Assembly (NCBI GenBank): GCA_029204225.1
Contig: CM055097.1
Location: 27,329,192 to 27,393,191 of the forward strand
DNA: 64,000 nt
Source: Diphasiastrum complanatum
Lineage: Eukaryota; Streptophyta; Lycopodiopsida; Lycopodiales; Lycopodiaceae
Reading direction: 5' to 3'
Both the position numbers and the translations under genes were made by a program. This document shows, one piece after another, positions 3,605 to 64,000 of the stretch; position 1 is the stretch's first letter, and each line of letters opens with the position of its first letter. Under the pieces are notes generated by a model, which saw only the letters and a program-made list of their open reading frames with translations, was not told the DNA's origin and ran no database searches.

Positions 3605-3616
3605 TGGTATCAGAGC
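3605..3616 (+). other. Primer-binding site (initiator tRNA-Met) of element A, copy 1
   Basis: TGGTATCAGAGC directly follows the LTR terminal CACA. It is the usual complement of the 3' end of plant initiator tRNA-Met used by many Copia elements. Confidence 0.9.
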
Positions 3617-4215: not shown

Positions 4216-7200
4216 ATGGCTACAAATGGAGGCTACATGTTGGAAAGCAATGATAGGCTTACCTCCCTCAACTATTCTACTTGGAAAGTAAGGATGGAGT
4301 CTTTGCTTGAGATGAATGAGTTGATGGATATTGTTGTAGGTGTGGAGGAGAGACCTTGGCACCTCAAGAACAATTGAGGTATGACAAGAGGGCAAAGAAA
4401 GCCCTTCACATGATCAAGATGAATGTGACAAATGAGCTTATCAAAGAGGTTGGTAAGTGCACATCATCTAGTGAAGCTTGGGAAGCCTTGAAGAAGGTTT
4501 ATGAATCCAAGTCTACTTCTAGAGTGTTGACTTTAAGAAGGCAAATCTTTTCTTGTATGCAAAAGAAGAGTGAGAATGGACATGCTTTTGTTTTGAGAGT
4601 TAAAGCATTGAATGATGAGTTAGCATGCATTAATGATGGCATAAATAATGAGGAGCTTGTTCAAGTGATTCTCAATGGCTTGTTGGATGATCATGCTAAT
4701 CTTGTTCAAAGTTATGCTATCCAAAAATGTTTACCAAGTGTTGGAGACTTGCAAGAGGTCTTGTTGGCTGAAGAATTCAGGTTGCAAGCAAGAGTGGGAG
4801 CATCTTCTACATCTCAAGGAGGAGAAGAGGAGGCAATGTTCTCTAAAGGCAAGTTCAAGGGCAAAGGTAAAAGCAATTGGTCTAAAGGGCAAGACCAAGG
4901 TGAGCACTCTACTTTTGGCAAAAAGAAGGATAGATCTAAGCTAAAATGTTTCTATTGTGGAGTCAAAGGGCATTTTGCTAGTGATTGTTTTAAGAAAAAG
5001 AGGGATCAAGGGGAAAAGCAAACCAATCTAACTATTGATGAGGGTGGGGATGAGCTTCTTTCAAATGATGCTTTTGTTATGTCATCTTGCTTGTTGGCTA
5101 ATCATGGAGACATTGATCCTTGGTGGATTGATAGTGGAGCCACTTCTCATATGACATATCATAAAGAGTATTTTTCATCTTTAATGGCATTTGATGGTGA
5201 TAGGAAGGTAATCTATACCGCAAATGATGGTGAGTGTGCAATCAAGGGGATTGGCACAATTCCTATTTCACTTTCTACAAATAGGAATATAGAATTGAAA
5301 GATGTTTTGCTCATTCCATCCATTACCAAGAACTTACTTAGTGTAAGCCAAATGCTTGACAAAGGATTCAAAGTTGAGTTTGATGGTGATGCTTGCTTGA
5401 TCAAAAAGGGGTGTAGTATCATTGCAAAAGGGAAAAGGCAAGGGAAATTGTTCAAGCTTGATGCATGTGTTGTTGCTAACCAAGTTGGATGCATGGCAAA
5501 TGAACAAATGTCAATTCAAGAGGTATGGCATAAAAGGATGGGACATCTCAACTACAAGGCCTTGGAGGTAATAGCCAAAAAGGAGGTAGTAAGGGGACTT
5601 CCCAAGTCTCTTACTTGCTTGAATCATGTTTGTGAAGAATGTGCTTTGTCTAAATCACATAGATTGCCATATACTAGATCTATATCTAGATCTAAGATGC
5701 CTTTTTCTCTCTTGCATTCGGATATTCATGGTGTTACTACAATTAGCAATGGAGGTGCTAAGATGTATGTAACTTTCATTGATGATTTTAGTAGATTTTG
5801 TTGGGTTTATCTACTAAAGAGCAAGGATGAGGTGTTTGATGTGTTTGTCAAGTTCAAAGTTGCTATTGAGACTCAATTTACAACCAAAATCAAATGCTTG
5901 AGGAGCGACAATGGTGGTGAATACATTTCTAACAAATTCAAAGCCTTTTGCGATGAGCATGGGATCAAGAGGGAGTACACATGTCCAAGAACACCACAAC
6001 AAAATGGAGTGGCCGAGAGGAAGAATAGAACCTTGTGTGAGAGTGCAAAGGCAATGAGATTGAATGCTAATCTTCCTAAACCTTTTTGGAGTGATGCTTT
6101 GTTGTGTGCAAATTTCCTATGCAATAGATGGCCAAGTGTTGTATTGGAAGGAAAAACCCCTTTTGAAGCTTTGTTTGGTACGAAGCCTAATGTCAAGTTT
6201 CTAAGAACTTTTGGATGCATTTGCTACTTCAACATTACTCTTGATGATAGAACTAAGGAGGATCCATCTTCAAGAAAGGGCATTTTTGTTGGTTATAGTG
6301 AAGTAAGCAAAGCATATAGGATTTATGTTCCTTCAATCAAGAAAGTGTTCACAAGTAGGGATGTCATTTTTGATGAAGGTAACATTCCAAAAGTTGTTTC
6401 AAGTGATGATGGTGTTGTTGCAACTAATGTGCTTGATGACAATGGAGTTGATGACACATTGGATGTGGATGTTGAAGAAGCCTCTTCAAGTCAAATTCCA
6501 AGGAGAACTCCAAGGCATAAAGTGAAACCCTCAAGGCTCACTTATGATGGCAAAGGTAAGCAAGTGGTGGATGGATCCAACTATGCTTTCCTAACTTCTT
6601 TTGATGTACCTTCATGTGTAGATGAAGCAAGGCAAGAAGAGGAATGGATCCAAGCAATGGATCTTGAGTTTGAAGCACTTATGAAGAACAACACATGGAG
6701 ATTGGTGGAGCTTCCAAAGGGCAAAAGTGCAATTGGATGCAAATGGATCTTCAAGGTAAAGACAAATCAAGATGGATCTATCAACAAGTTGAAGGCAAGG
6801 TTGGTGGCTAAAGGTTATGCTCAAGAGCATGGCATTGACTATGAGGAAACCTTTGCACCCGTGGCAAAGATGGTGAGCATAAGAGTAATCATTTCCCTTG
6901 CAACTCTTTATGGATGGGATCTTTGGCAATTAGACATTTCTAATGCTTTCTTGAATGGTGATCTTGAAGAGGAAGTCTACATGGAGCAACCCGAGAGCTA
7001 TGTTTCTCATAGCAAGCCTAATCATGTGTGTTTTCTACAAAAAAGTTTGTATGGTCTTAAGCAAGCACCAAGGAGTTGGTATGCTAGGCTTAACTCTTTT
7101 CTACTTTCTCAAAACTTCACTATGAGTGAGTATGATCATTCACTTTACTTTAGAATTAGTGCTAATGATGTTACAATCCTTCTAATTTATGTGGATGACA

Positions 7201-8165
7201 TTATTTTAAGTGGAGGGAACAAGGAAGATATAGAAGATATCAAGAAAGCACTAAAAAAGGAATTTGAAGTGCATGATCTTGGTCTTTTGAGCTATATCTT
7301 AGGAATAGAAGTAATTAGAACTTCTCAAATCACTTTTATTTCACAAGAGAAGTATGCTATTTCTATTCTCAATAGATTTCATATGGTAGATGCAAATCCT
7401 ATTGATACACCTATGGAATCACATGTAAAGCTAACTATAAGAGGTAATGAAAGATCCTTCGAGGACATTACTCTCTATAGGAAGCTAATAGGTTCTCTTA
7501 TATATCTAACCATCACAAGACCTGATTTATCTTATTGTGTTGGTAGATTAAGCCAATTCATGCAAGATCCTAGCATAGAACATTGGAAACTAGGAAAGAG
7601 GATCTTGAGATACATCTCGGGAACAAAAGATTTTGGCATTGTTTATAGAGGCTCATCACCTAACTTATTTGGTTTTTCAGATTCAGATTTTGCAGGAGAC
7701 CTTATGGATAGAAAATCCATAAATGCACATGCTATTTTCATAGGTGATGGAGCTATCTCATGGATGTCGAAGAAACAAGCAACTATATCACTTTCTTCTA
7801 GTGAGGCCGAGTACAAAGCTTTGACATCATGCACAAAGGAGATGGTGTGGATCAAGAGGATGATTATGGAGCTTCATTTGCTGGATTTTTCAGAGAGTCC
7901 AATCATCTTTTGTGACAACCTTTCAGCCCAAAGTCTAGCAAGCAATCCGGTTTTCCATGCAAGGAGCAAACATATCGAGGTGGCTTACCATTTTGTGAGA
8001 GAACAAGTGTTGGCAAAAGAGATCAAGCTTGAACATGTCCCATCAAAGGAATGTGTGGCTGATATCTTTACCAAAGCATTGGGAAAGGACTTATTTTTCA
8101 AGCATAGAACAAGTCTTGGTGTACTTTCTAAATCTATGCTAAAACTAGTTGAAGAGGGAGTGTGA
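4216..8165 (+). pseudogene. Element A gag-pol, copy 1, one-base frameshift in gag
   Basis: The start ATG at 4216 corresponds to the start of the intact 1316-codon frame in copy 2. Near 4350 this copy reads GAGACCTTGG where copy 2 reads GAGACCTTTGG. The one-base loss sends gag into a stop after about 50 codons. The rest of the frame (from about 4356 to the TGA at 8163-8165) is open for 1269 codons. It keeps the CCHC knuckle, protease DSG, integrase D-D35-E, RT YVDD and RNase H. The terminal TGA lies inside the first five bases of the 3' LTR. Whether the deletion is biological or a sequencing error cannot be told here, because the surrounding region is rich in one-base indels relative to copy 2. 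Confidence 0.9.
8151..8160 (+). other. Polypurine tract of element A, copy 1
   Basis: GAAGAGGGAG lies immediately 5' of the 3' LTR, the standard position of the plus-strand primer. It is also coding: it specifies the last residues of the polyprotein before the LTR-borne stop. Confidence 0.85.
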
Positions 8166-8813
8166 AAAATTGTCAACTAGTAGTATTTTCCTAACTTGAG
8201 ATTTTGTAGGCCTATGGCCAAATAAAAGTTAGAGATAGGTTCATACATGTATGTAGAGGCCCAAAGTATGTGTACACTACTTTTGAGGTCACATTAATTA
8301 GAGGAGGTCGAGTGTGGAGCTCTTCTATTGGCTCATAATTTGGTGCATTCCTATTTGACCAAATTTCTAGGTATATGGGTGAATCCTATTGGACCCCAAT
8401 TTTAGCCTATCATAAGACAAGTGGCCAAGAGGCACTATGGCTGCTATAAATAGCCATCTCCACGAGTATGTACACATCTCATTTTCATTCTATTGAATGA
8501 ATGTTATGCTCTTTGAAGATCCATCTTCTTCTCTCTCACTTTTTTGTTCATATCTTGCATTCTAGCCACTAGAATTGTGATTTCTTTGTTGCTATGGCTT
8601 CACACGTGTGAAATGCAGGTTGTAGGCTCTGAAGTACGGACAGGGACAGCAAGTTTCTGTTTGTGGAAGCTTATGATCAGATTTTGATGTTTAGTTGATG
8701 TTTAGTATGCTTAACATCACAATTTCTATCATTTTTTCAATCTAGATGTGCATAACTTCCATGGCCAAGATCTTTATGAAACTTTAGCATCTTTTGGATC
8801 TGAGTTTTTCACA
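8161..8813 (+). repeat. 3' LTR of element A, copy 1
   Basis: The 653-bp LTR matches 2952-3604 and is followed by the target duplicate TCGAG at 8814-8818. Its first bases TGTGA provide the TGA stop of gag-pol. Confidence 0.97.
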
Positions 8814-9440
8814 TCGAGCAGTGTCTTTCTTTTATCGTGTTCTTCTACACCTGATGTAGAAGATATTACCATCGACCGTGACAGAGCAGGGTCATACATC
8901 GAAGCCAGCCTAGCCTCTTCCTCATCACCCAATACTTCGTCTTCTAAATTTTTGTCCACATCGACAGTAAATCTTTGATTAGATGTTCTACTTGAAGAAC
9001 CAACACCAATTGATCTAGAAGATTGGCCTTCATCAAGTATTAACGCAGATATGAAGAAAACAAAAGCTATGCCCTCAGCTATAAACCTGCATGATCTCCT
9101 ATGGGATTCACAATATTGTACCACCTTCAGGCTCTCGTCAAGCTTGGTAAACTTCCTATCATGCTTGTGCTTGGCTTCAGGCTGGGCAACTATCAGTTCA
9201 TGGAAATGAATAAACTTCAGGCCATCAATAACAAGAGATAATTTGAGGATGCTAGTTCAAAACTTTTTTAATAATTCTAATAGGTGAGACTTGTGCTCAA
9301 GCACAAATCCATCAACATCAAATTTAAGACGAAAAAGCGATGAAAAGTACTCAGTCCTGTCTAGAACACCAGCGTCAGAGAGAAATTTATGCAGCTTGTC
9401 AAATTCCATATCGGAAATGACAGACAACACTGGATACTGC

Positions 9441-9634
9441 ATATCGCAAGCACGAGAGGAATGGAGATAATTTGGATCGACAAAGAGACTGTCGTGTGAC
9501 AACAATATCAGACAAAACAAAATGTAACAATATCGCAGGCACGTGACGGTGTGCAGAAAAAATAGAGAAAAGTAGCAGCGTCGCGTCGTAGCGATATTCG
9601 ACAGTTGAAATGAATATCTGATATCGCAGGCACG
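9441..9634. repeat. Three copies of an ATATCGCAGGCACG-like motif at about 90-bp spacing
   Basis: ATATCGCAAGCACG starts near 9441, ATATCGCAGGCACG near 9530 and 9621. They lie just upstream of the presumed start (9409) of the minus-strand convergent gene. The sequence between them is not clearly repeated. They could be promoter sites or transposase-binding subterminal repeats. Neither is shown. Confidence 0.55.
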
Positions 9635-9959
9635 CGAGGGAGTGATGGCAAATAAAATCGAACACAGTGGACTAGCATGGTTGTGATATTGCCTTGACGA
9701 TCTCTGAATAGCAAAATGTTTTATGACACTGTTTAGCCCTTATATAGATCCCGCAGATTCATCGCAACCATTCAAAAATCACCGTTAGATATGCGACACT
9801 TTAGAGATACGTCAAGTCCTGTAACGCGTCTCCTCCATTTGTCTTCTTTGGCTCCCTCTAACTGCTGCTTTTGATCTTGTCTTCTTTTGCTTCTCTTTGT
9901 TGTTGTAGAGAGCTTGATCAGAGCTATCCTTGTCATCAAGATGTTCACGGGCTTTCCTG

Positions 9960-10242
9960 ATCTCGATTACAGCCTTCTCAAATGCAACGTTGCAAATCGA
10001 ATCTTGGAATGATTTGGGTATCTACTCTTCTCAAAGCAAGTATCAAGATTTCAAATCCAGACAAGCAAACCCTCTTCATTGCTACTATCTCCATCGAACT
10101 TAGAAAACTTAAAAAGTTTATTATCAATCTTAGCAAACCTCCTTTTCCTATATCAAGTAGAAGAAGTTGACTTGGAGGAAACATGAGGAGATGACGACAT
10201 AGATGAAGAGGAGCTTGAAGAGCCTCGTGAGGAGCTATCCAT
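9960..10242 (-). pseudogene. Gag N-terminal fragment, Gypsy-like (fragment H), copy 1
   Basis: The ATG at 10242-10240 opens a very serine-rich N-terminus (about 30 residues) that ends at an in-frame TAG. The same frame continues with KFSKFDGDSSNEEGLLVW and, after another TAG, a segment ending FATLHLRR. A focus on FDG, a Trp-bearing stretch and FATLHL is typical of the retrotransposon gag domain of Gypsy elements. Both stops would fit single-base changes. The fragment ends without reaching a zinc knuckle. Confidence 0.45.
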
Positions 10243-10599
10243 CTTTGATTGGAGTTTTTTTGGAATTCACCTGAAATACACAAACTCAAGGCAAAAAGTA
10301 CGAACAGACTAGAGATTCAGAGAAATGCCATTCTCCAAAAAGGAAGATAGAAGCTCGCATTAACAAAGTATTGTCTCTAAAATAGAAAGCAAGTTGGAGA
10401 TCCAATTCTTGAGGAACCCCCAAATGGAATTTATTAGCTTTAATATTAAAGAGATATTGTAAGAAAAAGAAAATTTGAGCAGAAGGGAAATCTATTCGAA
10501 AGTAAACATACAAAGTCCTGTGCATTGGCATTTGTTTTAAGAAGGAATACACAAGGCCCTCACATCAACTTCACAAAGAAAGAAAAATAATAGACCTTG

Positions 10600-10611
10600 G
10601 CTCTGATACCA
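10600..10611 (-). other. Primer-binding site of fragment H, copy 1
   Basis: The minus strand reads TGGTATCAGAGC followed by CAAGG, complementary to initiator tRNA-Met. It lies 3 bp from the LTR-like terminus at 10615. Confidence 0.75.
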
Positions 10612-10862
10612 AACTGTGAACTTGAAGTGAAGGTCTACTAATTCTAAAGTCCTGACTTTAGAAGTTGTGACTTAAAAAGACCAAATCAACATAACACTGT
10701 TGAATAGAACTTGAAAAAAAAGACTCAAAAAGCTTAGCAAGTTTGATCAAGTTCTATTAGTGTTTGCATCTCATTTTGTGTGTAGATGCTAATTTTTCTA
10801 CATTGGTGAGATTGATAGTGTATTTCTCTTTCTAACCAACGATCTTTCAAGTGGATTGGATC

Positions 10863-11722
10863 TTAATGATTTGAAAAACCTACCGATTGATAAGGGTATT
10901 TCCTTTCTTGACTTATCACTATCTGTCTGCTTGCTCTGTCTCTAGATATCTTGATCCCGAGGAGGTAGTGCATTGGGTATGAGTCGGTCATTTCGAATTC
11001 GTTCGACAATAATGATTTTTTCTCATGAAGTAATTGATTTGAATTGTTGATGATCAGAGAGTCATCAACATATAGAGCTATTATAACATAGCTTGGTCCT
11101 ATGTGTTTGAGATAAACATTAGAGTTTGTAGAATTTGGAATGAAGTCGTGTTGCAACAAGAATCGATTGATTCTATCAAACTAGGCCCTTGGAGCTTGCT
11201 TTAGCCCGCAAAGAGCTTTCTACAGCTTACATACCTTGTGTTCTTGGCCTTGAAGGATGTAGACTTTGGATTGATAGATATAGATGTCTTCTTGTATGTA
11301 TCCATTCATAAATGTTCATGAACATCCATTTGATGAACTTCCAAATCTTCGAGAGCTACAATCGAATTGACTCGAAGTCTTATTACTTAACTGAACGTCT
11401 CAGTGTAGTCAATTCCATAAGTTTGTTCATATCCTTTGACAACTAGTCGAGCTTTCCATTTGGTTATACATACGTCTAGATTGAGCTTCAACTTGAAGAT
11501 CCACTTAGTATCAATAATCTTTGCATCAGGAGGAGCTTCAACAAGATGCCAGGTTCTATTCTTCATCAATGAATTATACTCAACATTCATGGCAGTGCGC
11601 CAGTTGTCTGCATTTGAACTTGACAGTGCTTCTGCTACTAAGGTAGGTTCATCATAATTGATGAATGCATAGGGGATATAATGATCAGGCTCTTGTTGAA
11701 TGTCGAGTAGACCTTCGAACAA
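10863..11722 (-). pseudogene. Copia reverse transcriptase fragment (element E)
   Basis: Two RT blocks occur in order. The first (11722-11387) contains WRTAMNVEYNSLMKNRTWHL and TKWIFKLKL and ends at GIDYTETFS. The second (11159-10863) contains ALYVDDSLII, the RT catalytic box, followed by LLSNEFEMTD. The 230 bp between them is frameshifted. RNase H is missing because the fragment ends at about 10863, next to fragment H. A pseudogene is certain. The family assignment rests on the two motifs. Confidence 0.8.
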
Positions 11723-49807: not shown

Positions 49808-51560
49808 CTATGGTTGATGATATTTCTTGATACGAGAGCCATTTAATCTTGTATCAAGTAGATTTCCTTCGAGATCAACCAGTTGGATCGAATTATTTGA
49901 GAACACCTCAATGACTTTGTATGGCCCCATCCATCTTGTATGTAGTTTCCCAAGAAACTTCAAATCTCTATTATCATACAATAATGCTAAGTCCCCAGCT
50001 TTAAGAGAAATCTTCTTCAAACGTGTATCATATTGCTCTTTTCTCTTTTTCTGCACCAATACTGTTTCTTGTAATGCTTAGAATCTATCCTCCTCGAATC
50101 GAAAAATCTGATCTGGTCTTTCGTTGACCATGTTATGTGATTCCTCACGGTCTGCATGTTGAATTCGATATGTCAGAATTTCAAATTCAATTGGGAGTAT
50201 TGGGTACATTTCATAAACCAAATAGTATGGAGTCTTTTTAGTCGTGAATTTTTCTATATCGGTACGCCCAAAGAACTGCAAGTATTTTTGTATCCCAGTC
50301 AGTGGAATGCTGATCTGTGATTTTATTTAGAATCTTGCATATAATATCGTTTGCTCTTTCTGTTAATCCATTTGCCTTTGGATTTTATGGTGTTGTTCTT
50401 CTATGAATAATCATAAAGTACTTCAGTAACTCCACAATAGTAGTGTTAATGAAATGGGTTCCTCTGTCACTAACGAGTTCCAAAGGACATCCATACCTTG
50501 TAATTATATTGACAAAAAAAAAATTGCAACTCTTTTTGCATCATTTTTCTTTGTAGCCTCGACTTTTTGTACAATAATCTGTGGCTACCAGTATGTATCG
50601 ATTTTTGCTTTGTCTTGTAGCCGATTTGATTGGTCCAACAAAATTGATACCCCACTTTTCAAATGGTGCCAATGGTAAGATTGGTACTAATGGCCAATTT
50701 GTTGACTTTGCTGGTTTTTCCATCCTTTGACAAGGATCACGGTTTAGAATAAATTTATGCACATCTTTGTACATTGTGTGCCACAAATATTTCTCATTCA
50801 TAATTTTCCGAAATGTGTTCTTTAAAGCATAGTGTCCACCAACTTCTTCTTCATGGAAAGACCTGATTACTATTTGTATTTCTTCTGGTTCCAAGCATCT
50901 TCGAAGTTCATCATTACTTCCAAGTTTGTAAAGCACACCTGATATAATAGTGTATGGTGCTACTTTATATTGAAAAACATTCTTCACTTCTCGAGTCATG
51001 CCTTCCGGATATAGCAATGTTTGCAAATACTGAATAATATCACCATATATTGATTTTTTGATATTTAACATCAGTTCTTCATCGAGTAGATTATCCGAAA
51101 TAGGGTCTTTGAGTTCAGTAGTTTCCAATCTCGATAGATAATCCGCATTTGCATGATGTTTGTCAGGTTGGATTTCCACTATATAATCAAATTCTGATAG
51201 TAGAAGAATCCAATAAGCAATTTGACCCGATAAATCTGGTTTATTAACCAAATACTTTATAGCATAATGGTCAACATGAAATGTAAATGCATAACTTAAT
51301 AAATAATGTCAAAACTATTTTACTGAATAAATCATTCCCAAAGTTTCTCGCTCAGTAGTAGAGTAATTCTTTTCTGATGCAAATAATTGTGTACCTGCAT
51401 AATATATAGGATAATCTTTCTTTGCATCAGTTTTTTGGCTCAGAATGCTTATTTCTTTGTTTACAACATTGGGATTCACCCAAGTGTTTTTCATGACATG
51501 GAAAAGGCTTTGTATATGTCCATCTTACCTTGCATAATTTTCATCAATTCCTAGGCCCTT
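49808..51560 (-). pseudogene. Ty3/Gypsy pol remnant: RNase H, integrase
   Basis: On the minus strand: RNase H text around 51400-51330 (PIYYAGTQLFASEKNYSTTERETLG, frame-shifted nearby), then 51251-50541 with LVNKPDLSGQIAYW, the integrase zinc-binding region (H near 50800, then NRDPCQRMEK) and the core start FEKWGINFVGPI. There the catalytic Asp expected in W-G-x-D-F is Asn. After frameshifts (50540-50290) the C-terminal GPY/F-like segment RWMGPYKVIEVF is in 50059-49808. RT, protease, gag and LTRs are missing. Confidence 0.88.
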
Positions 51561-51674
51561 TTTTCTAGGGGCTGCCCATCCCCAATTATAGTGGAGTGTG
51601 ACACAAAGGGTGATCAGTCCCTTGGTTTCTTCTCCCAGTCTTTATAGACTCGAGTGAGCCTTCTTTATCATTAG

Positions 51675-51704
51675 GAAAAACGGCAAGATATGTTGCCGTT
51701 TTTC
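51675..51704. repeat. Hairpin: GAAAAACGGCAA inverted, 6-base loop
   Basis: GAAAAACGGCAA (51675-51686) and TTGCCGTTTTTC (51693-51704) are perfect inverses around GATATG. On DNA level it could be a cruciform, an intrinsic structure of a LTR end, or chance. Confidence 0.85.
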
Positions 51705-51815
51705 TAGTTTCCGGTGCTGCCCGCCGTCTAACTGGTGTGGTTAACTCATTACAACTCAAACGAAATAAACATGTCGCCTATGCACACAGTCGACTAAGCA
51801 CACGCCGCCTAAGCT

Positions 51816-51903
51816 ATCAGTAGCGGGAGGAGAAGGAGAGGATAATTTTATTCATGCTCTCAAGAAGATATCAGTAGCGGGAGGAGAAGGAGAAGATAAT
51901 TTT
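51816..51903. repeat. 54-bp tandem duplication
   Basis: ATCAGTAGCGGGAGGAGAAGG begins at 51816 and again at 51870. The second copy is partial (about 34 bp) with one G-to-A difference. Confidence 0.85.
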
Positions 51904-52044
51904 TTGGTGTTCCCTCCAAAAATCTTTGAAAACATATGAAAGGTAGATTATATAACATGCATGTTTAATGATTTACAAGCTTGTTTTGGTTTCGTGTGAA
52001 TCGTTTTTCTCGTTACATGATTTAGTTTGTTTGATTTTGAAATA

Positions 52045-54700
52045 ATGGAAAAGTTTGATCTTCATATTGTGCTCCCACTCGATTGTGCTCCAATTTATAA
52101 AAGAAATACCAAAGCTGGTCAGATTAATGAGACTTGTAAGAAAGAACTTAGAGAAAAAAATTGTAGAAATATTGATTTGTGGACAGTTGGATCAATTTAT
52201 CCCAAAGATCCAAGTACAGGATGTTTTTTAGACTTTCAAACTACTGGTTGTGTGTAATGGACATAGTAGATTGTTGGGATACTGTCAAAAGCTGAGCCAA
52301 TACGGGATGTATGAAGCAATGAAGCGAACACATTTATTGGAGTATTTGTTGAATCAAACAAACAATGAGAAGGCAATACTTCAAGAAAATTTGTAGAAAC
52401 AAATATACAAAAATACGACATTGAGCTCCAATATATCAGAATTGAAAACTATTATTATTGATCTTCAAATATCCAATCAAGTTATGTTGAGAGACGTTGA
52501 AAATTTTAAAAGAGAAATCTTGAGTGCTATTGTTGAAGGCGAAGTTCTCAGAAGAAAATTAAATATAAGAAAACACAAACGACTTCCAAAATAAGACATA
52601 GATGATCTGTCTTCAAGAAGTGGAAACAAGAAGAAAAGGATTCAGGCATTCAAGTAAGTATTAATTCAAAGAGCAAATGACATGCTTGCTAAGTTTTTAT
52701 GTGCTTGTTTTTCTAATGCTTGCTAATTTAATTATTTATTATGTCTTGCAGATCATCTTTGGTGGTGAGAGAACATTATAAAGATTCTACGAGTATTGGA
52801 AAGTCTTTGGGTTCCATATTGTCATCAAAAACTACAAAAGAAATGTTAAAGAATTCTCGTTATGACAGGATTAAGAATGATATTGCTGTAGTGATTATAC
52901 AGAGCATTCAACATGTCTTGGATGCAAGAGTTATCCAGGGAGCATGTGATGATTCAGAAATTAGTCGTAAAGCATATACTCTATTGTTTAAAATTGTATA
53001 GGAAGTCTTTGCACATGTGAAGATTCGAAAGCTACCTCTTCCTCGTCCATTTAGAGTAAAAAAAGCAAGATATTGTCTTAATGAGAGTATGAGTATGCTT
53101 ATAGGTGTTCCATTTCAAATCAAGAAATTGTATACATGTGAGAGTGGAACATTGGAATACAATGACTCCAACAATTTATTTTTGGATATTAACAAAGTAG
53201 TGGCATACATGATTAAATATTACAAAATATTTGAAAGAGAAGTCCAAGAAAAATTGATATTGGTTATTAAACTTGATGAGTCTGAAATTGTTAAGGGACA
53301 AAAATTGGAATGGGTAAGTATCACCTTTATGAACAGAGCATTGAACAATACTAAAAATAATACAGATGATTCCTCATTTAGTGTTCAATCAGAGAATAAA
53401 ATATGGTGGTTAGCAGCATTTCAGGTATATTTCAATTTTACTTAGTATTGTATTTTATCACCTAAGTTGTTGATGTCAATGTTCGTAACTTTGTATGTGT
53501 TTGTTACTTTTCAGGTTTTAAAAGAAGACCATGCTATTTTGTTGTGGATTTTTTCGACATCAAATTATGCAAAGATTATTGAAGAGCATATGGGTGGAAA
53601 CAAAATATATGTGCCAAACTATGGCACGTTTCAAATTTAATGGCATCTTGCAGGTGATTTAAAGACACTGAAATGTATGTATAATGTTTCGCATGGGGCA
53701 AATACTAAACACCCTTGTTTGTATTGTATGAAGAATTGTAAAGACTTGAATTTGAAAAGATCACGAGTTGGTCCAACAAGAGATCGAGAGGATCCAAACT
53801 TTAGACATGTGTTGGCAATTCCATTGATCAATGTTCACATATGCACATTGCATGCTAAGGTACAAATTATTGAAAAATTGATTTACAATCATATTTTGTA
53901 TGTCTGGAATGCCAAACCTGAATCGGCTTCTAAAATTGGAATCGAGAGATTAGAGCAAGTACTTTTTGCACAAGGGGAATGTAAAAATAAAAAAAAGTGA
54001 AAAATTATCGGGAAAATCAGGGAACGTTCCAAACAAGCTATCTGTTGGAGGTGCAAAAGCTAGAAGGTTTTTATCCAATCACACTGGAAAGTCTTCTACC
54101 GTGACATACAATGTTTGGAAAGACGTTGTTGCAGCATCAAAAGATTTTGAAGAGAGAGGCAACACAAGATTAAAAAAAGCTGAAGTATGGCAAAATCTCA
54201 ACAATCTGATTGGCATGTTGCGAAAAGAAAAGTTATCTAAAATTGACATTGCAAATTTACAAGAATATTGTGAGATATTTGTCAAATCGGTAGCAGAATG
54301 TTGGGGAGAGGATCATGTTACACACTATATGGTGATTCACTATTTGTTTTTGTGCAAAAATTGTTCTGCAACATCATATATTTGATTTATGATATATGTA
54401 TTTTACTAGTTGCAGCATATTCTATTACATCACACCACATTTTTTGCAAAAGAATATGGAAGTCTGAGCATATGGTCTTCTCAAGGTATAGAGAAATCGC
54501 ATTGGCAAGCAAGAGGAGCTTTTCATCGAGCAACCAACCATGGAGGATATAATTCAAAGAGATGCTACTTATATCAATTATTTCAATGGTTCTACAGAAG
54601 AGCACAGTTTACATATCAAACCAAATATTCAACAAATCTCATTTCATTCAAAAAGGCATTTCAACATCTGAGGAGAAATAGTTCAACTTCATCATCTTAA
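52045..54700 (+). pseudogene. Probable D-D-E transposase gene with introns (best copy)
   Basis: Coding pieces follow one another on the plus strand. First is an N-terminal piece from ATG 52045 (MEKFDLHIVLPLDC...), then a coiled-coil-like stretch to about 52650. A GTAAGT donor (52653) and TTGCAG acceptor (52750) follow, then an exon to 53424 with one TAG (near 53000). A second intron lies at about 53425-53514. The next exon has one TAA (near 53637) and one A-run frameshift (near 53995), and a last exon ends at the TAA 54698-54700. Candidate catalytic residues are Asp at 53275 (IKLDESEIVKG), Asp at 53656 (AGDLKTLK) and Glu at 54491 (WSSQGIEKSH). A C-x2-C pair (HPCLYC, 53716-53727) and LHAKVQIIEKL lie between the second and third, as in DDE transposases with zinc-binding inserts. 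Only a few point lesions separate it from a full frame. Role inferred: cut-and-paste recombinase in the nucleus. Confidence 0.6.
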
Positions 54701-55585
54701 TAGAAAAACAATTAAAATATTACATATCCTCATCGGTATCAAAGGTCAGTTGAGCAGTATGGTCATGAAAAAATTGTCTCCTCTCATATGAATCCAGATG
54801 CTCAATTGATCTTCTTTTGCTCAACTCTATGTAACTTGCATACACTGCTAAGGCAGAGGATCTTTTGGGTACATTTTACTGTTAGGATATCTATGTCCAT
54901 CACAAAAACAGGACAATGCCTTTATTGCCATTACTATAGTTCCTGCTTGTGAATAGAAGTTGTCATGTTGAATACAAATTTCATTTTGTACAAAGTATTT
55001 CAGGTAATGGCACAATGTTGAATCCTTATGGCCAACAACACCTCGGGCAACTCCTCTTCTCGTAGCAAAATTATCAACTTCAATTGTGTCTTGCAACATA
55101 AATACAAAAATTTGTAATCAGTTAAATTTTCAGATGGATTTTCATTGAATACAATGCTAAATATGATTATAATGGAATAAGAAAATAAAAATTACCATGT
55201 CATGCTGATCATACTCCAACAATCCTTTTCCACGCAAGTCATGCCCAACAAGAAATGTATCCTCAGAAAAAACGTATTGCTCTGAAGGAGGATATCTTTT
55301 TTGAAACTCAATGAACTCCTCCTCACTAGGAGCATTTGCACCATAGGCTAGACATTGTTGCCTTGTAATTTGTAAGGCCTGCTCTCCAGACATCCAACCA
55401 CCTTCATCTTGATAGTCAATCCCTTCAATTAAATCATCATGATTGAAGTCTATTGTATCCGAAAATTTTGACAATGCATTGGCTAGTACAGATAGGATCT
55501 CGTCCTCTCTCATGTCGAACACATCCCCAATATCATTCAATGATAAATATGGCAGGCTATTCATATGGAATACATGAATGTCGAG

Positions 55586-56238
55586 TGTGAAAAATTGTCA
55601 ACTAGTAGTATTTTCCTAACTTGAGATTTTGTAGGCCTATGGCCAAATAAAAGTTAGAGATAGGTTCATACATGTATGTAGAGGCCCAAAGTATGTGTAC
55701 ACTACTTTTGAGGTCACATTAATTAGAGGAGGTCGAGTGTGGAGCTCTTCTATTGGCTCATAATTTGGTGCATTCCTATTTGACCAAATTTCTAGGTATA
55801 TGGGTGAATCCTATTGGACCCCAATTTTAGCCTATCATAAGACAAGTGGCCAAGAGGCACTATGGCTGCTATAAATAGCCATCTCCACGAGTATGTACAC
55901 ATCTCATTTTCATTCTATTGAATGAATGTTATGCTCTTTGAAGATCCATCTTCTTCTCTCTCACTTTTTTGTTCATATCTTGCATTCTAGCCACTAGAAT
56001 TGTGATTTCTTTGTTGCTATGGCTTCACACGTGTGAAATGCAGGTTGTAGGCTCTGAAGTACGGACAGGGACAGCAAGTTTCTGTTTGTGGAAGCTTATG
56101 ATCAGATTTTGATGTTTAGTTGATGTTTAGTATGCTTAACATCACAATTTCTATCATTTTTTCAATCTAGATGTGCATAACTTCCATGGCCAAGATCTTT
56201 ATGAAACTTTAGCATCTTTTGGATCTGAGTTTTTCACA
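55586..56238 (+). repeat. 5' LTR of element A, copy 2
   Basis: It is 653 bp, TGTGAAAAA to TTTTTCACA, with the same TATA box (55870) and CACACGTGTG palindrome as in copy 1. Confidence 0.97.
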
Positions 56239-56250
56239 TGGTATCAGAGC
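56239..56250 (+). other. Primer-binding site of element A, copy 2
   Basis: TGGTATCAGAGC directly follows the LTR and is complementary to initiator tRNA-Met. A leader of about 600 bp then precedes gag. Confidence 0.9.
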
Positions 56251-56847
56251 ATTAGGCGGCCAAATGTGCAGGTTTTGCCAGATTTAGAAGAGATTTGTGG
56301 GCGAGTTTGCTTTTGTAGCATTCCAATCAAGTTTCTAGCTAAAAATCTTGTTGATTTATGTGTAGAAATTGGATCTTTGTGATCAAAACATCATTTGTAT
56401 GCATTTCAATTGAAGTAGGGCGAATTCCCTCTGTACTTATCAGAATAAGGAGACAAAAATTGTTTTGGAAAGAGGGAGATGCAAGATCCAACAAGATCCT
56501 ATTAGTTTTCCATTCTAGCATATAGTTTTTTTATTCAATTTCTTGCTTCTTCATGTCAAAAACTTCAAAATTGATGTAACCCTCTGATTTTCAGTTTGCT
56601 GAATGATTCAAGAGTGTATTTCAATCTTAGGAGTGAGGGAAAAGCAAGTATATTGAGGTTTGGTCTTGGTTTGATCAAGAAATCATAAAACTAGTGGCTA
56701 AAATTAAGGAAAAAGTGAGGAAAAGAGAGAAAAAGTAAGGTTTTAGGTTCCAAATCTTTGTGATTTCTTCTTGTGTTTCATTTGTTGATTCAAGAGAGTG
56801 CTTAGTGCATTGGAACAGGTCAAAGATCAGAGATCAATCATTGCAAC

Positions 56848-59800
56848 ATGGCTACAAATGGAGGCTACATGTTGGAAAGCAATGATAGGCTTACCTCCCT
56901 CAACTATTCTACTTGGAAAGTAAGGATGGAGTCTTTGCTTGAGATGAATGAGTTGATGGATATTGTTGTAGGTGTGGAGGAGAGACCTTTGGCACCTCAA
57001 GAACAATTGAGGTATGACAAGAGGGCAAAGAAAGCCCTTCACATGATCAAGATGAATGTGACAAATGAGCTTATCAAAGAGGTTGGTAAGTGCACATCAT
57101 CTAGTGAAGCTTGGGAAGCCTTGAAGAAGGTTTATGAATCCAAGTCTACTTCTAGAGTGTTGACTTTAAGAAGGCAAATCTTTTCTTGTATGCAAAAGAA
57201 GAGTGAGAATGGACATGCTTTTGTTTTGAGAGTTAAAGCATTGAATGATGAGTTAGCATGCATTAATGATGGCATAAATAATGAGGAGCTTGTTCAAGTG
57301 ATTCTCAATGGCTTGTTGGATGATCATGCTAATCTTGTTCAAAGTTATGCTATCCAAAAATGTTTACCAAGTGTTGGAGACTTGCAAGAGGTCTTGTTGG
57401 CTGAAGAATTCAGGTTGCAAGCAAGAGTGGGAGCATCTTCTACATCTCAAGGAGGAGAAGAGGAGGCAATGTTCTCTAAAGGCAAGTTCAAGGGCAAAGG
57501 TAAAAGCAATTGGTCTAAAGGGCAAGACCAAGGTGAGCACTCTACTTTTGGCAAAAAGAAGGATAGATCTAAGCTAAAATGTTTCTATTGTGGAGTCAAA
57601 GGGCATTTTGCTAGTGATTGTTTTAAGAAAAAGAGGGATCAAGGGGAAAAGCAAACCAATCTAACTATTGATGAGGGTGGGGATGAGCTTCTTTCAAATG
57701 ATGCTTTTGTTATGTCATCTTGCTTGTTGGCTAATCATGGAGACATTGATCCTTGGTGGATTGATAGTGGAGCCACTTCTCATATGACATATCATAAAGA
57801 GTATTTTTCATCTTTAATGGCATTTGATGGTGATAGGAAGGTAATCTATACCGCAAATGATGGTGAGTGTGCAATCAAGGGGATTGGCACAATTCCTATT
57901 TCACTTTCTACAAATAGGAATATAGAATTGAAAGATGTTTTGCTCATTCCATCCATTACCAAGAACTTACTTAGTGTAAGCCAAATGCTTGACAAAGGAT
58001 TCAAAGTTGAGTTTGATGGTGATGCTTGCTTGATCAAAAAGGGGTGTAGTATCATTGCAAAAGGGAAAAGGCAAGGGAAATTGTTCAAGCTTGATGCATG
58101 TGTTGTTGCTAACCAAGTTGGATGCATGGCAAATGAACAAATGTCAATTCAAGAGGTATGGCATAAAAGGATGGGACATCTCAACTACAAGGCCTTGGAG
58201 GTAATAGCCAAAAAGGAGGTAGTAAGGGGACTTCCCAAGTCTCTTACTTGCTTGAATCATGTTTGTGAAGAATGTGCTTTGTCTAAATCACATAGATTGC
58301 CATATACTAGATCTATATCTAGATCTAAGATGCCTTTTTCTCTCTTGCATTCGGATATTCATGGTGTTACTACAATTAGCAATGGAGGTGCTAAGATGTA
58401 TGTAACTTTCATTGATGATTTTAGTAGATTTTGTTGGGTTTATCTACTAAAGAGCAAGGATGAGGTGTTTGATGTGTTTGTCAAGTTCAAAGTTGCTATT
58501 GAGACTCAATTTACAACCAAAATCAAATGCTTGAGGAGCGACAATGGTGGTGAATACATTTCTAACAAATTCAAAGCCTTTTGCGATGAGCATGGGATCA
58601 AGAGGGAGTACACATGTCCAAGAACACCACAACAAAATGGAGTGGCCGAGAGGAAGAATAGAACCTTGTGTGAGAGTGCAAAGGCAATGAGATTGAATGC
58701 TAATCTTCCTAAACCTTTTTGGAGTGATGCTTTGTTGTGTGCAAATTTCCTATGCAATAGATGGCCAAGTGTTGTATTGGAAGGAAAAACCCCTTTTGAA
58801 GCTTTGTTTGGTACGAAGCCTAATGTCAAGTTTCTAAGAACTTTTGGATGCATTTGCTACTTCAACATTACTCTTGATGATAGAACTAAGGAGGATCCAT
58901 CTTCAAGAAAGGGCATTTTTGTTGGTTATAGTGAAGTAAGCAAAGCATATAGGATTTATGTTCCTTCAATCAAGAAAGTGTTCACAAGTAGGGATGTCAT
59001 TTTTGATGAAGGTAACATTCCAAAAGTTGTTTCAAGTGATGATGGTGTTGTTGCAACTAATGTGCTTGATGACAATGGAGTTGATGACACATTGGATGTG
59101 GATGTTGAAGAAGCCTCTTCAAGTCAAATTCCAAGGAGAACTCCAAGGCATAAAGTGAAACCCTCAAGGCTCACTTATGATGGCAAAGGTAAGCAAGTGG
59201 TGGATGGATCCAACTATGCTTTCCTAACTTCTTTTGATGTACCTTCATGTGTAGATGAAGCAAGGCAAGAAGAGGAATGGATCCAAGCAATGGATCTTGA
59301 GTTTGAAGCACTTATGAAGAACAACACATGGAGATTGGTGGAGCTTCCAAAGGGCAAAAGTGCAATTGGATGCAAATGGATCTTCAAGGTAAAGACAAAT
59401 CAAGATGGATCTATCAACAAGTTGAAGGCAAGGTTGGTGGCTAAAGGTTATGCTCAAGAGCATGGCATTGACTATGAGGAAACCTTTGCACCCGTGGCAA
59501 AGATGGTGAGCATAAGAGTAATCATTTCCCTTGCAACTCTTTATGGATGGGATCTTTGGCAATTAGACATTTCTAATGCTTTCTTGAATGGTGATCTTGA
59601 AGAGGAAGTCTACATGGAGCAACCCGAGAGCTATGTTTCTCATAGCAAGCCTAATCATGTGTGTTTTCTACAAAAAAGTTTGTATGGTCTTAAGCAAGCA
59701 CCAAGGAGTTGGTATGCTAGGCTTAACTCTTTTCTACTTTCTCAAAACTTCACTATGAGTGAGTATGATCATTCACTTTACTTTAGAATTAGTGCTAATG

Positions 59801-60798
59801 ATGTTACAATCCTTCTAATTTATGTGGATGACATTATTTTAAGTGGAGGGAACAAGGAAGATATAGAAGATATCAAGAAAGCACTAAAAAAGGAATTTGA
59901 AGTGCATGATCTTGGTCTTTTGAGCTATATCTTAGGAATAGAAGTAATTAGAACTTCTCAAATCACTTTTATTTCACAAGAGAAGTATGCTATTTCTATT
60001 CTCAATAGATTTCATATGGTAGATGCAAATCCTATTGATACACCTATGGAATCACATGTAAAGCTAACTATAAGAGGTAATGAAAGATCCTTCGAGGACA
60101 TTACTCTCTATAGGAAGCTAATAGGTTCTCTTATATATCTAACCATCACAAGACCTGATTTATCTTATTGTGTTGGTAGATTAAGCCAATTCATGCAAGA
60201 TCCTAGCATAGAACATTGGAAACTAGGAAAGAGGATCTTGAGATACATCTCGGGAACAAAAGATTTTGGCATTGTTTATAGAGGCTCATCACCTAACTTA
60301 TTTGGTTTTTCAGATTCAGATTTTGCAGGAGACCTTATGGATAGAAAATCCATAAATGCACATGCTATTTTCATAGGTGATGGAGCTATCTCATGGATGT
60401 CGAAGAAACAAGCAACTATATCACTTTCTTCTAGTGAGGCCGAGTACAAAGCTTTGACATCATGCACAAAGGAGATGGTGTGGATCAAGAGGATGATTAT
60501 GGAGCTTCATTTGCTGGATTTTTCAGAGAGTCCAATCATCTTTTGTGACAACCTTTCAGCCCAAAGTCTAGCAAGCAATCCGGTTTTCCATGCAAGGAGC
60601 AAACATATCGAGGTGGCTTACCATTTTGTGAGAGAACAAGTGTTGGCAAAAGAGATCAAGCTTGAACATGTCCCATCAAAGGAATGTGTGGCTGATATCT
60701 TTACCAAAGCATTGGGAAAGGACTTATTTTTCAAGCATAGAACAAGTCTTGGTGTACTTTCTAAATCTATGCTAAAACTAGTTGAAGAGGGAGTGTGA
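56848..60798 (+). CDS. Copia gag-pol polyprotein, intact (1316 residues)
   Basis: A single frame encodes all retrotransposon proteins. Gag spans residues 1 to about 240 (GGYMLESNDRLTSLNYSTWK start). The CCHC knuckle CFYCGVKGHFASDC is at about 245-258. Protease has DSG near Asp306 (WWIDSGATSHMT). The gag-pre-integrase box is near 436 (VWHKRMGHLNYK). Integrase has Asp503, Asp565 and Glu601, a D-D35-E triad. RT has YVDD at about 992-995. RNase H has Asp1156 (SDSDFAGD), SSSEAEYKAL and FCDNLSA. The length is normal for Copia. The ATG at 56848 is the first in frame and sits after the leader. The last codons overlap the polypurine tract, and the TGA (60796-60798) lies within the LTR. No nonsense or frameshift is present, so it could be active. 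Confidence 0.97.
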   Translation: MATNGGYMLESNDRLTSLNYSTWKVRMESLLEMNELMDIVVGVEERPLAPQEQLRYDKRAKKALHMIKMNVTNELIKEVGKCTSSSEAWEALKKVYESKSTSRVLTLRRQIFSCMQKKSENGHAFVLRVKALNDELACINDGINNEELVQVILNGLLDDHANLVQSYAIQKCLPSVGDLQEVLLAEEFRLQARVGASSTSQGGEEEAMFSKGKFKGKGKSNWSKGQDQGEHSTFGKKKDRSKLKCFYCGVKGHFASDCFKKKRDQGEKQTNLTIDEGGDELLSNDAFVMSSCLLANHGDIDPWWIDSGATSHMTYHKEYFSSLMAFDGDRKVIYTANDGECAIKGIGTIPISLSTNRNIELKDVLLIPSITKNLLSVSQMLDKGFKVEFDGDACLIKKGCSIIAKGKRQGKLFKLDACVVANQVGCMANEQMSIQEVWHKRMGHLNYKALEVIAKKEVVRGLPKSLTCLNHVCEECALSKSHRLPYTRSISRSKMPFSLLHSDIHGVTTISNGGAKMYVTFIDDFSRFCWVYLLKSKDEVFDVFVKFKVAIETQFTTKIKCLRSDNGGEYISNKFKAFCDEHGIKREYTCPRTPQQNGVAERKNRTLCESAKAMRLNANLPKPFWSDALLCANFLCNRWPSVVLEGKTPFEALFGTKPNVKFLRTFGCICYFNITLDDRTKEDPSSRKGIFVGYSEVSKAYRIYVPSIKKVFTSRDVIFDEGNIPKVVSSDDGVVATNVLDDNGVDDTLDVDVEEASSSQIPRRTPRHKVKPSRLTYDGKGKQVVDGSNYAFLTSFDVPSCVDEARQEEEWIQAMDLEFEALMKNNTWRLVELPKGKSAIGCKWIFKVKTNQDGSINKLKARLVAKGYAQEHGIDYEETFAPVAKMVSIRVIISLATLYGWDLWQLDISNAFLNGDLEEEVYMEQPESYVSHSKPNHVCFLQKSLYGLKQAPRSWYARLNSFLLSQNFTMSEYDHSLYFRISANDVTILLIYVDDIILSGGNKEDIEDIKKALKKEFEVHDLGLLSYILGIEVIRTSQITFISQEKYAISILNRFHMVDANPIDTPMESHVKLTIRGNERSFEDITLYRKLIGSLIYLTITRPDLSYCVGRLSQFMQDPSIEHWKLGKRILRYISGTKDFGIVYRGSSPNLFGFSDSDFAGDLMDRKSINAHAIFIGDGAISWMSKKQATISLSSSEAEYKALTSCTKEMVWIKRMIMELHLLDFSESPIIFCDNLSAQSLASNPVFHARSKHIEVAYHFVREQVLAKEIKLEHVPSKECVADIFTKALGKDLFFKHRTSLGVLSKSMLKLVEEGV

Positions 60799-61446
60799 AA
60801 AATTGTCAACTAGTAGTATTTTCCTAACTTGAGATTTTGTAGGCCTATGGCCAAATAAAAGTTAGAGATAGGTTCATACATGTATGTAGAGGCCCAAAGT
60901 ATGTGTACACTACTTTTGAGGTCACATTAATTAGAGGAGGTCGAGTGTGGAGCTCTTCTATTGGCTCATAATTTGGTGCATTCCTATTTGACCAAATTTC
61001 TAGGTATATGGGTGAATCCTATTGGACCCCAATTTTAGCCTATCATAAGACAAGTGGCCAAGAGGCACTATGGCTGCTATAAATAGCCATCTCCACGAGT
61101 ATGTACACATCTCATTTTCATTCTATTGAATGAATGTTATGCTCTTTGAAGATCCATCTTCTTCTCTCTCACTTTTTTGTTCATATCTTGCATTCTAGCC
61201 ACTAGAATTGTGATTTCTTTGTTGCTATGGCTTCACACGTGTGAAATGCAGGTTGTAGGCTCTGAAGTACGGACAGGGACAGCAAGTTTCTGTTTGTGGA
61301 AGCTTATGATCAGATTTTGATGTTTAGTTGATGTTTAGTATGCTTAACATCACAATTTCTATCATTTTTTCAATCTAGATGTGCATAACTTCCATGGCCA
61401 AGATCTTTATGAAACTTTAGCATCTTTTGGATCTGAGTTTTTCACA
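60794..61446 (+). repeat. 3' LTR of element A, copy 2
   Basis: It matches 55586-56238 and is followed by target duplicate TCGAG. It supplies the stop codon of gag-pol within its first five bases. Confidence 0.97.
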
Positions 61447-62073
61447 TCGAGCAGTGTCTTTCTTTTATCGTGTTCTTCTACACCTGATGTAGAAGATATT
61501 ACCATCGACCGTGACAGAGCAGGGTCATACATCGAAGCCAGCCTAGCCTCTTCCTCATCACCCAATACTTCGTCTTCTAAATTTTTGTCCACATCGACAG
61601 TAAATCTTTGATTAGATGTTCTACTTGAAGAACCAACACCAATTGATCTAGAAGATTGGCCTTCATCAAGTATTAACGCAGATATGAAGAAAACAAAAGC
61701 TATGCCCTCAGCTATAAACCTGCATGATCTCCTATGGGATTCACAATATTGTACCACCTTCAGGCTCTCGTCAAGCTTGGTAAACTTCCTATCATGCTTG
61801 TGCTTGGCTTCAGGCTGGGCAACTATCAGTTCATGGAAATGAATAAACTTCAGGCCATCAATAACAAGAGATAATTTGAGGATGCTAGTTCAAAACTTTT
61901 TTAATAATTCTAATAGGTGAGACTTGTGCTCAAGCACAAATCCATCAACATCAAATTTAAGACGAAAAAGCGATGAAAAGTACTCAGTCCTGTCTAGAAC
62001 ACCAGCGTCAGAGAGAAATTTATGCAGCTTGTCAAATTCCATATCGGAAATGACAGACAACACTGGATACTGC

Positions 62074-62267
62074 ATATCGCAAGCACGAGAGGAATGGAGA
62101 TAATTTGGATCGACAAAGAGACTGTCGTGTGACAACAATATCAGACAAAACAAAATGTAACAATATCGCAGGCACGTGACGGTGTGCAGAAAAAATAGAG
62201 AAAAGTAGCAGCGTCGCGTCGTAGCGATATTCGACAGCTGAAATGAATATCTGATATCGCAGGCACG
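62074..62267. repeat. Copy 2 of the 90-bp-spaced ATATCGCAGGCACG motifs
   Basis: It is the same as 9441-9634. The only substitution noticed in the second half of the long repeat (T in copy 1, C in copy 2, at 62242) lies between the second and third motif. Confidence 0.55.
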
Positions 62268-62592
62268 CGAGGGAGTGATGGCAAATAAAATCGAACACAG
62301 TGGACTAGCATGGTTGTGATATTGCCTTGACGATCTCTGAATAGCAAAATGTTTTATGACACTGTTTAGCCCTTATATAGATCCCGCAGATTCATCGCAA
62401 CCATTCAAAAATCACCGTTAGATATGCGACACTTTAGAGATACGTCAAGTCCTGTAACGCGTCTCCTCCATTTGTCTTCTTTGGCTCCCTCTAACTGCTG
62501 CTTTTGATCTTGTCTTCTTTTGCTTCTCTTTGTTGTTGTAGAGAGCTTGATCAGAGCTATCCTTGTCATCAAGATGTTCACGGGCTTTCCTG

Positions 62593-62875
62593 ATCTCGAT
62601 TACAGCCTTCTCAAATGCAACGTTGCAAATCGAATCTTGGAATGATTTGGGTATCTACTCTTCTCAAAGCAAGTATCAAGATTTCAAATCCAGACAAGCA
62701 AACCCTCTTCATTGCTACTATCTCCATCGAACTTAGAAAACTTAAAAAGTTTATTATCAATCTTAGCAAACCTCCTTTTCCTATATCAAGTAGAAGAAGT
62801 TGACTTGGAGGAAACATGAGGAGATGACGACATAGATGAAGAGGAGCTTGAAGAGCCTCGTGAGGAGCTATCCAT
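62593..62875 (-). pseudogene. Gag N-terminal fragment, Gypsy-like (fragment H), copy 2
   Basis: It is identical by eye to 9960-10242: a serine-rich start, an in-frame TAG, then the FSKFDGDS and FATLHLR segments. Confidence 0.45.
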
Positions 62876-63232
62876 CTTTGATTGGAGTTTTTTTGGAATT
62901 CACCTGAAATACACAAACTCAAGGCAAAAAGTACGAACAGACTAGAGATTCAGAGAAATGCCATTCTCCAAAAAGGAAGATAGAAGCTCGCATTAACAAA
63001 GTATTGTCTCTAAAATAGAAAGCAAGTTGGAGATCCAATTCTTGAGGAACCCCCAAATGGAATTTATTAGCTTTAATATTAAAGAGATATTGTAAGAAAA
63101 AGAAAATTTGAGCAGAAGGGAAATCTATTCGAAAGTAAACATACAAAGTCCTGTGCATTGGCATTTGTTTTAAGAAGGAATACACAAGGCCCTCACATCA
63201 ACTTCACAAAGAAAGAAAAATAATAGACCTTG

Positions 63233-63435
63233 GCTCTGATACCAAACTGTGAACTTGAAGTGAAGGTCTACTAATTCTAAAGTCCTGACTTTAGAAGTTG
63301 TGACTTAAAAAGACCAAATCAACATAACACTGTTGAATAGAACTTGAAAAAAAAGACTCAAAAAGCTTAGCAAGTTTGATCAAGTTCTATTAGTGTTTGC
63401 ATCTCATTTTGTGTGTAGATGCTAATTTTTCTACA
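63233..63435 (-). mobile_element. LTR-like end and primer-binding site of fragment H, copy 2
   Basis: The minus strand carries TGTAGAAAAATT...GTTCACA (63435-63248), three bases, then TGGTATCAGAGC (63244-63233). It is the same as 10600-10802. Confidence 0.6.
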
Positions 63436-63495
63436 TTGGTGAGATTGATAGTGTATTTCTCTTTCTAACCAACGATCTTTCAAGTGGATTGGATC

Positions 63496-64000
63496 TTAAT
63501 GATTTGAAAAACCTACCGATTGATAAGGGTATTTCCTTTCTTGACTTATCACTATCTGTCTGCTTGCTCTGTCTCTAGATATCTTGATCCCGAGGAGGTA
63601 GTGCATTGGGTATGAGTCGGTCATTTCGAATTCGTTCGACAATAATGATTTTTTCTCATGAAGTAATTGATTTGAATTGTTGATGATCAGAGAGTCATCA
63701 ACATATAGAGCTATTATAACATAGCTTGGTCCTATGTGTTTGAGATAAACATTAGAGTTTGTAGAATTTGGAATGAAGTCGTGTTGCAACAAGAATCGAT
63801 TGATTCTATCAAACTAGGCCCTTGGAGCTTGCTTTAGCCCGCAAAGAGCTTTCTACAGCTTACATACCTTGTGTTCTTGGCCTTGAAGGATGTAGACTTT
63901 GGATTGATAGATATAGATGTCTTCTTGTATGTATCCATTCATAAATGTTCATGAACATCCATTTGATGAACTTCCAAATCTTCGAGAGCTACAATCGAAT
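63496..64000 (-). pseudogene. Copia RT fragment E, copy 2 (cut by window end)
   Basis: It contains the ALYVDDSLII catalytic box and LLSNEFEMTD, identical to 10863-11159, and continues to the window edge. Confidence 0.8.

Follow-up and report, generated by a model that had tools for sequence, protein, structure and literature searches.

A probable four-gene DNA transposon of Diphasiastrum complanatum that carries an H3-like histone gene

We analyzed a stretch of 64,000 nucleotides of Diphasiastrum complanatum DNA (assembly GCA_029204225.1, contig CM055097.1, positions 27,329,192 to 27,393,191 of the forward strand), hereafter the window, in which two genes face each other tail to tail. An earlier note on the window (the original prediction) had proposed that the two genes form a compact two-gene transposon. 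What they form is the left portion of a larger element, present here as a dead, truncated copy. Judged from its sequence, this element is probably a terminal-inverted-repeat DNA transposon with four genes, of the type of the EnSpm-Mirage-Chapaev-Transib-RAG1 (CMCT) clade. We designate the genes A (a predicted DDE transposase), B, H, and D; H looks like an H3-like histone that is carried as an element gene and is apparently maintained. At the level of the family, and in its anatomy, the reading is well supported.

The main features of the window copy, which belongs to family 1 of the element, are as follows.
51673 to 62462, no strand assigned: family 1 element copy, truncated and interrupted by a Copia element, delimited by comparison with relatives.
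52753 to 54700, plus strand: gene A, a decayed gene for a predicted DDE transposase, containing one intron or more and recognized by the motifs KLDES (first D), AGDLK (second D), CLYC, H-x4-H, and QGIEK (E).
54720 to 62048, minus strand: gene B, an unknown protein, decayed and split by Copia, with homologues in families 2 and 3.

The stop codon of the plus-strand frame is TAA at 54698-54700 and that of the minus-strand frame lies at 54720-54722, leaving the 19 base pairs (bp) between facing stops that had been described originally. An intron and decay were also seen, as had been described. A GT..AG interval at approximately 53425-53515 is predicted from the sequence to be an intron of gene A, with the frame resuming beyond it; compared with relatives, the copy has a frame break near 53980 and has lost a 60-bp stretch at 54877. 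Similarity among other copies passes both ends of the window copy, indicating that it is truncated. In the relatives, the sequence continues leftward for approximately 75 bp, ending at the terminus CATTAGGGGA, and rightward for approximately 3-4 kb, across H and D, as far as TCCCCTAATG; therefore, 51673 and 62462 were ruled out as element ends. Gene searches detected A and B in the window and no match to H or D. Within the interval 52045-62042, which had been proposed as the element, 55586-61446 is a nested Copia retrotransposon, and compared with its relatives the element copy is truncated at both ends.

We searched the genome from which the window is taken (1.74 Gb). Each search scored only the best 40 or 150 candidates; counts are therefore lower bounds and biased toward intact copies. 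Gene A was present in at least 42 places at 92-100% identity (best 40 of 4694 first-look candidates). One check suggested with the original prediction was whether the two genes recur as neighbors, and within this genome they do: at least part of gene B adjoined A in all 12 copies fetched for their gene A match. Another was alignment of loci for shared termini, and such termini, CATTAGGGGA..TCCCCTAATG, were found. The ends were located with the extended flank of four copies, giving CATTAGGGGAAACCTCAACTCAAAAAGGGCCC on the left and AAAGGGCCCTTATAGCGCTTGGACCTCCCCTAATG on the right. Genome-wide, 97 left ends were recovered when one mismatch was allowed and 112 right ends when two were allowed, compared with 0 for the reversed-pattern control of each. 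Pairing the 97 left ends with 100 of the 112 right ends yielded at least 22 combinations under 25 kb, two of which share one right end. The paired ends lie 6969 to 9649 bp apart in the longer cases, and short forms of 2165, 3087, 3191, and 3597 bp were also recovered. The 2165-bp derivative occurred at two sites with different flanks, as expected for movement. These repeated shared ends, together with the catalytic motifs described below, bear out the prediction of a D-D-E gene within a repeated DNA transposon.

Two copies were read from end to end, E13 (9649 bp) and E11 (7819 bp), and both contained A (+), B (-), H (+), and D between their ends; H was also present in E08, E09, and E12. In E13 (loci L013 and L019), a 703-bp block of gene D at approximately 8418-9120 is inverted relative to E09, E10, and E11, and approximately 143 bp of E11 are missing beside it. 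We took this inversion for a local rearrangement.

Homologues of all four genes share one locus in two further families, at approximately 30-60% protein identity. We opened six of 134 H loci, a set defined as the 150 listed genome matches of the Pfam histone model minus 13 with canonical scores and 3 partial ones. Three of the six represented family 2, two family 3, and one family 4. The family 2 locus (contig C22) contains A (+), B (-), H (+), and D (-), in the same order as family 1, whereas the family 3 locus (C5) contains A (+), B (+), H (-), and D (-). A two-gene system with tail-to-tail genes as its defining layout, as originally envisaged, was rejected; the longer relatives have four genes, and A and B lie on one strand in family 3. 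For family 2, a left end, CATTAGAGG / CATTAGAGGAG, was found independently of family 1 and starts with CATTAG; 38 of 40 matches start at query positions 1026-1031, the other two being the query and a near-identical duplicate. The family 4 locus (L071, C13:7453800-7463000) has an H3-like frame at 4293-4610 (+) and a B homologue at 5101-6302 (-); the same 9 kb holds a second, family-2-like H and B piece. In families 2 and 3, long CT microsatellites are found close to gene D on its 5' side (L024 165-450; F2 11145-11682 in L068). A different dispersed repeat of approximately 590 bp with a palindromic end (L068 1310-1908; 3037 first-look candidates) lies where the right end of family 2 was sought.

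Linkage was quantified from three separate searches, with the family 3 D protein, the family 3 B protein, and the Pfam histone model, by counting neighbors within 8 kb, duplicated loci included. At least 63 of 150 D matches lay near B; when B was placed at random, the mean was 0.2 and the maximum 3 (200 runs), a chance overlap that is slightly too low as the lengths of several contigs were approximate (100 Mb for small ones). D lay near H in at least 22 of 150 cases, with 22 on the same strand, and H lay near B in at least 36 of 134 cases, 35 of them on opposite strands. For family 1, neighbors within 12 kb among 40 matches numbered at least 13 for A-B, 16 for B-H, 11 for A-H, 11 for B-D, 10 for H-D, and 6 for A-D.

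Gene A is, by its motifs, a predicted DDE transposase with the catalytic motifs of the CMCT clade. In an alignment of three transposase sequences from families 1 and 3 (A1), D11, D106, and E365 were invariant, and all three sequences had CIYC or CLYC at columns 126-129 and H340-H345. The first D lies in KLDES or KLDKA and the second in A(G/V)DL, with the CxxC 20 residues past the second D. In families 1 and 3, both of which have the C-terminal exon aligned, the E lies 20 residues after the second H of H-x4-H; RAG1 has the same H-x4-H and the same spacing to its E, with the letters confirmed in PDB. The transposases of families 1 and 3 share 42% identity. Gene A had no match in Pfam, NCBIfam, or PDB. 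According to the available part of PMC12730594, the hallmarks of the clade are C(2)C, H(3-4)H between the second D and the last E, 5'-CA..TG-3' ends, and a target site duplication of 2-5 bp. The ends of family 1, CATTAGGGGA..TCCCCTAATG, likewise have the form 5'-CA..TG-3'.

The partner gene B was conserved in its C-terminal part across families (blastp, 31-44% identity; expectation value E 8e-40 to 2e-8), and the N-terminal part of family 3 B showed no blastp match to families 1 and 2. No Pfam family matched the B fragments over its cut-off, in line with the original description of a second gene without a known domain, and a profile of the C-terminal part matched no solved structure in PDB. 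These results did not uphold the idea that the second gene is RAG2-like, with a kelch propeller. Pieces of gene D were 31-61% identical across families by blastp, and D had neither a Pfam family over cut-off nor a PDB profile match. The C-terminal part of D (L021:5042-5656, minus strand) appears ubiquitin-like or PB1-like by eye; Pfam PB1 gave E 0.14 in family 3, far below cut-off.

Gene H, whose frame in L008 starts MARTKQTARPKS, matched the Pfam histone family PF00125 (cut-off 26.4 bits) with 86.4 bits in family 1, 98.3 in family 2, and 104 in family 3. Family 1 H matched H3 structures in PDB over residues 1-128 (E 7.9e-25), and the best chains listed were H3. NCBIfam gave only weak archaeal-histone matches. 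The H proteins of families 1-3 are 40-48% identical (blastp, E 5e-28 to 3e-23), and copies of families 2 and 3 hold open frames of 330-337 amino acids. Genome-wide, the Pfam histone model had roughly 6325 first-look candidates, and the best 150 of 153 matches were listed; 13 of these had canonical scores, 134 scored approximately 95-110 bits, and 3 were partial. KRVT ahead of the last helix and the start of that helix are kept in the four families aligned. The copies of family 1 begin with ARTKQTARPKS or near variants. The ARKS motif (K9/K27) was not found in the tails of families 1-3, family 4 having been read only in part. Long, family-specific extensions are present, C-terminal in families 1 and 2 and N-terminal and poly-proline in family 3.

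We considered CENH3 as the identity of H. CENH3 is marked by a loop 1 longer than in H3; in H, loop 1 has the H3 length in families 1, 3, and 4 and one additional residue in family 2. Over the fold, the element histones were 47-56% identical to host H3 and 44-51% identical to Arabidopsis CENH3 (AtCENH3). H has IP-x-A-x-F in place of the IRKLPF of H3, which we take to resemble plant CENH3. CENH3 was rejected on loop 1 length and identities. In the tree, the element histones and AtCENH3 grouped together against H3 and CENP-A (91), and the inner splits between families had values of 26-62.

Selection was estimated as the ratio of nonsynonymous to synonymous substitution rates (dN/dS) by the Nei-Gojobori method. 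Three more diverged comparisons of H gave 0.30 and 0.31 in family 2 and 0.28 in family 3, indicating that H seems to be maintained. In family 2, B gave 0.26-0.59 and D 0.59. Judging by the more diverged pairs, H and B appear to have been under constraint during the life of the elements.

Several results weigh against the reading of a CMCT-type transposon with a maintained histone gene. A transposase profile searched against PDB chains up to E 10 matched one unrelated chain and neither RAG1 nor Transib; since it has no sequence match to these chains, kinship with RAG1 and Transib rests on motifs. The right end of family 2 was not found, as the query ran into another repeat, and neither end of family 3 could be located at its locus, which has Copia insertions on both sides. 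No clear target site duplication emerged: flanks were identical over 2 bp in 4 of 15 elements, against 20 of 210 shuffled pairs, and two of the 15 share the same flanks. E10 is bounded by both ends and has H deleted; thus, H is dispensable for the persistence of a copy. Closer comparisons of H gave higher dN/dS (0.62 for the closest pair of family 2; 0.54 in family 1, 135 codons); these values approach neutrality, as anticipated for dying copies, and do not speak for constraint. Finally, the inner splits of 26-62 make one origin of the element histones indistinguishable from several.

We tentatively favor anti-silencing as the role of H, given that the ARKS motif is lost and that chromatin regulators are familiar cargo of transposons. 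A would cut and paste the element, and B and D may be accessory factors of transposition or its regulation. H would be made from the element, pair with host H4, and enter nucleosomes. A nucleosome on or near the element would then lack the ARKS sites at which H3K9 and H3K27 are methylated, and in family 1 it would keep the K4 end of the tail. In its full form, the proposal is that a rapidly evolving element H3 takes the place of host H3 at or close to element DNA, without H3K9/H3K27 methylation and with an H3K4-type tail, and keeps this DNA open to the transposase, in thousands of copies of a single plant genome; this complete scenario is less likely than not.

The main rival to anti-silencing gives H a structural role in transposition, wrapping or bending the ends or tethering the transposase to chosen chromatin. 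All four aligned families retain the histone fold, with KRVT and the beginning of the last helix, and the long family-specific extensions would suit a fused adaptor. However, E10 has both of its ends and no H, although it could have been moved in trans. We regard the structural role as possible but on the unlikely side.

It is improbable that H is a passenger, i.e., a host H3 caught by chance, as gene fragments are in Pack-MULEs or Helitrons, with no function for the element. Helentrons of Culex do carry broken fragments of two histone genes, according to the available part of PMC4067079, and the one copy E10 has lost H. However, in families 1-3 the H homologues, 40-48% identical, have B and D homologues as neighbors, and the open frames of 330-337 amino acids in families 2 and 3, with dN/dS of approximately 0.3 in three comparisons, do not suit a passenger.

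The original prediction, a two-gene RAG-like transposon in which A is RAG1-like and B is RAG2-like, retains very little probability. It was right in part: the catalytic motifs, including the H-x4-H and E spacing, are of the RAG1 type, and A and B are convergent in families 1 and 2. However, no RAG2-like partner was recovered, since the B fragments lack a Pfam family over cut-off, two more conserved genes (H and D) are present, and convergence is not kept in family 3, where A and B lie on one strand. That the H3-like genes are a host family amplified by chance near transposons is barely credible: the PF00125 candidates (6325 at first look, a rough count) far exceed the 13 canonical-scoring genes among the matches listed, but H lies between both element ends in E13 and E11, and its strand and spacing relative to D and B were fixed in separate searches.

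The CMCT clade comprises EnSpm/CACTA, Mirage, Chapaev, Transib, Plavaka, ESTA, Lanisha, and RAG1 in the available part of PMC12730594. The present element shares with it C(2)C, H(3-4)H between the second D and the last E, and 5'-CA..TG-3' ends; it differs in that genes B, H, and D find no mention in that part of the paper and in having no sequence match to solved chains of RAG1 or Transib. An EnSpm-like lineage put forward as a new superfamily, Lanisha (Maumus, McDaniel and Carey 2020, Repbase Reports), is possibly the same lineage as this element; it is known here through its citation in PMC12730594. The same available text describes DNA transposons with chromatin genes, namely TET/JBP in fungi, SET in oomycetes, and a Vandal regulator in plants. 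These likewise place an accessory gene for chromatin marks beside the transposase, but they carry a modifying enzyme or regulator, whereas the present element carries the histone itself. The Culex Helentrons also contain histone-derived sequence inside a transposon; the available part of PMC4067079 describes short, broken H4/H15 fragments in a rolling-circle element, in contrast to the H3-like gene reported here, whose frame is open and which has relatives in several families. Compared with histone H3 and CENH3/CENP-A, H shares the whole histone fold and, in family 1, the H3-like start of the tail, but has extra 200-amino-acid domains and lacks the ARKS motif.

A search of the open-access literature, which left Repbase and most subscription papers outside its scope, found no published transposon that carries an intact histone gene; the one histone-bearing case that came up was the broken H4/H15 fragments of the Culex Helentrons. 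Known transposons carry enzymes or regulators of chromatin marks; in the open papers searched, none was found to keep an intact histone as a regular gene. If H enters chromatin, a mobile element could change the substrate of silencing instead of its enzymes, and such elements may be both a source of, and a selective pressure for, fast-evolving H3-like histones. If element H3 does sit on element DNA, the arms race would be fought with histones and not with histone-modifying enzymes.

Two further features of the window concern the history of the pair.
55586 to 61446, plus strand: Copia long terminal repeat (LTR) retrotransposon inside gene B, with identical LTRs at 55586-56238 and 60794-61446.
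1 to 9829, no strand assigned: second truncated element copy with the same Copia, within a segmental duplication, its left part cut by the window edge.

The Copia element is flanked on both sides by a 5-bp target duplication, TCGAG. Positions 1-11367 and 52648-64000 of the window form a direct duplication, 99.7% identical and approximately 52.6 kb apart, that includes the flanks and Copia. The two genes are therefore duplicated together, as had been stated, but the cause is a segmental duplication, and co-duplication in the window was rejected as a sign of joint transposition; joint dispersal is shown separately by the 12 of 12 fetched copies that keep B. A third version on contig C8 (L005) matches window positions 50943-64000 and lacks Copia, and both copies in the window (contig C6) have it, indicating that the split between C8 and C6 is older than the Copia insertion and that the duplication on C6 is younger.

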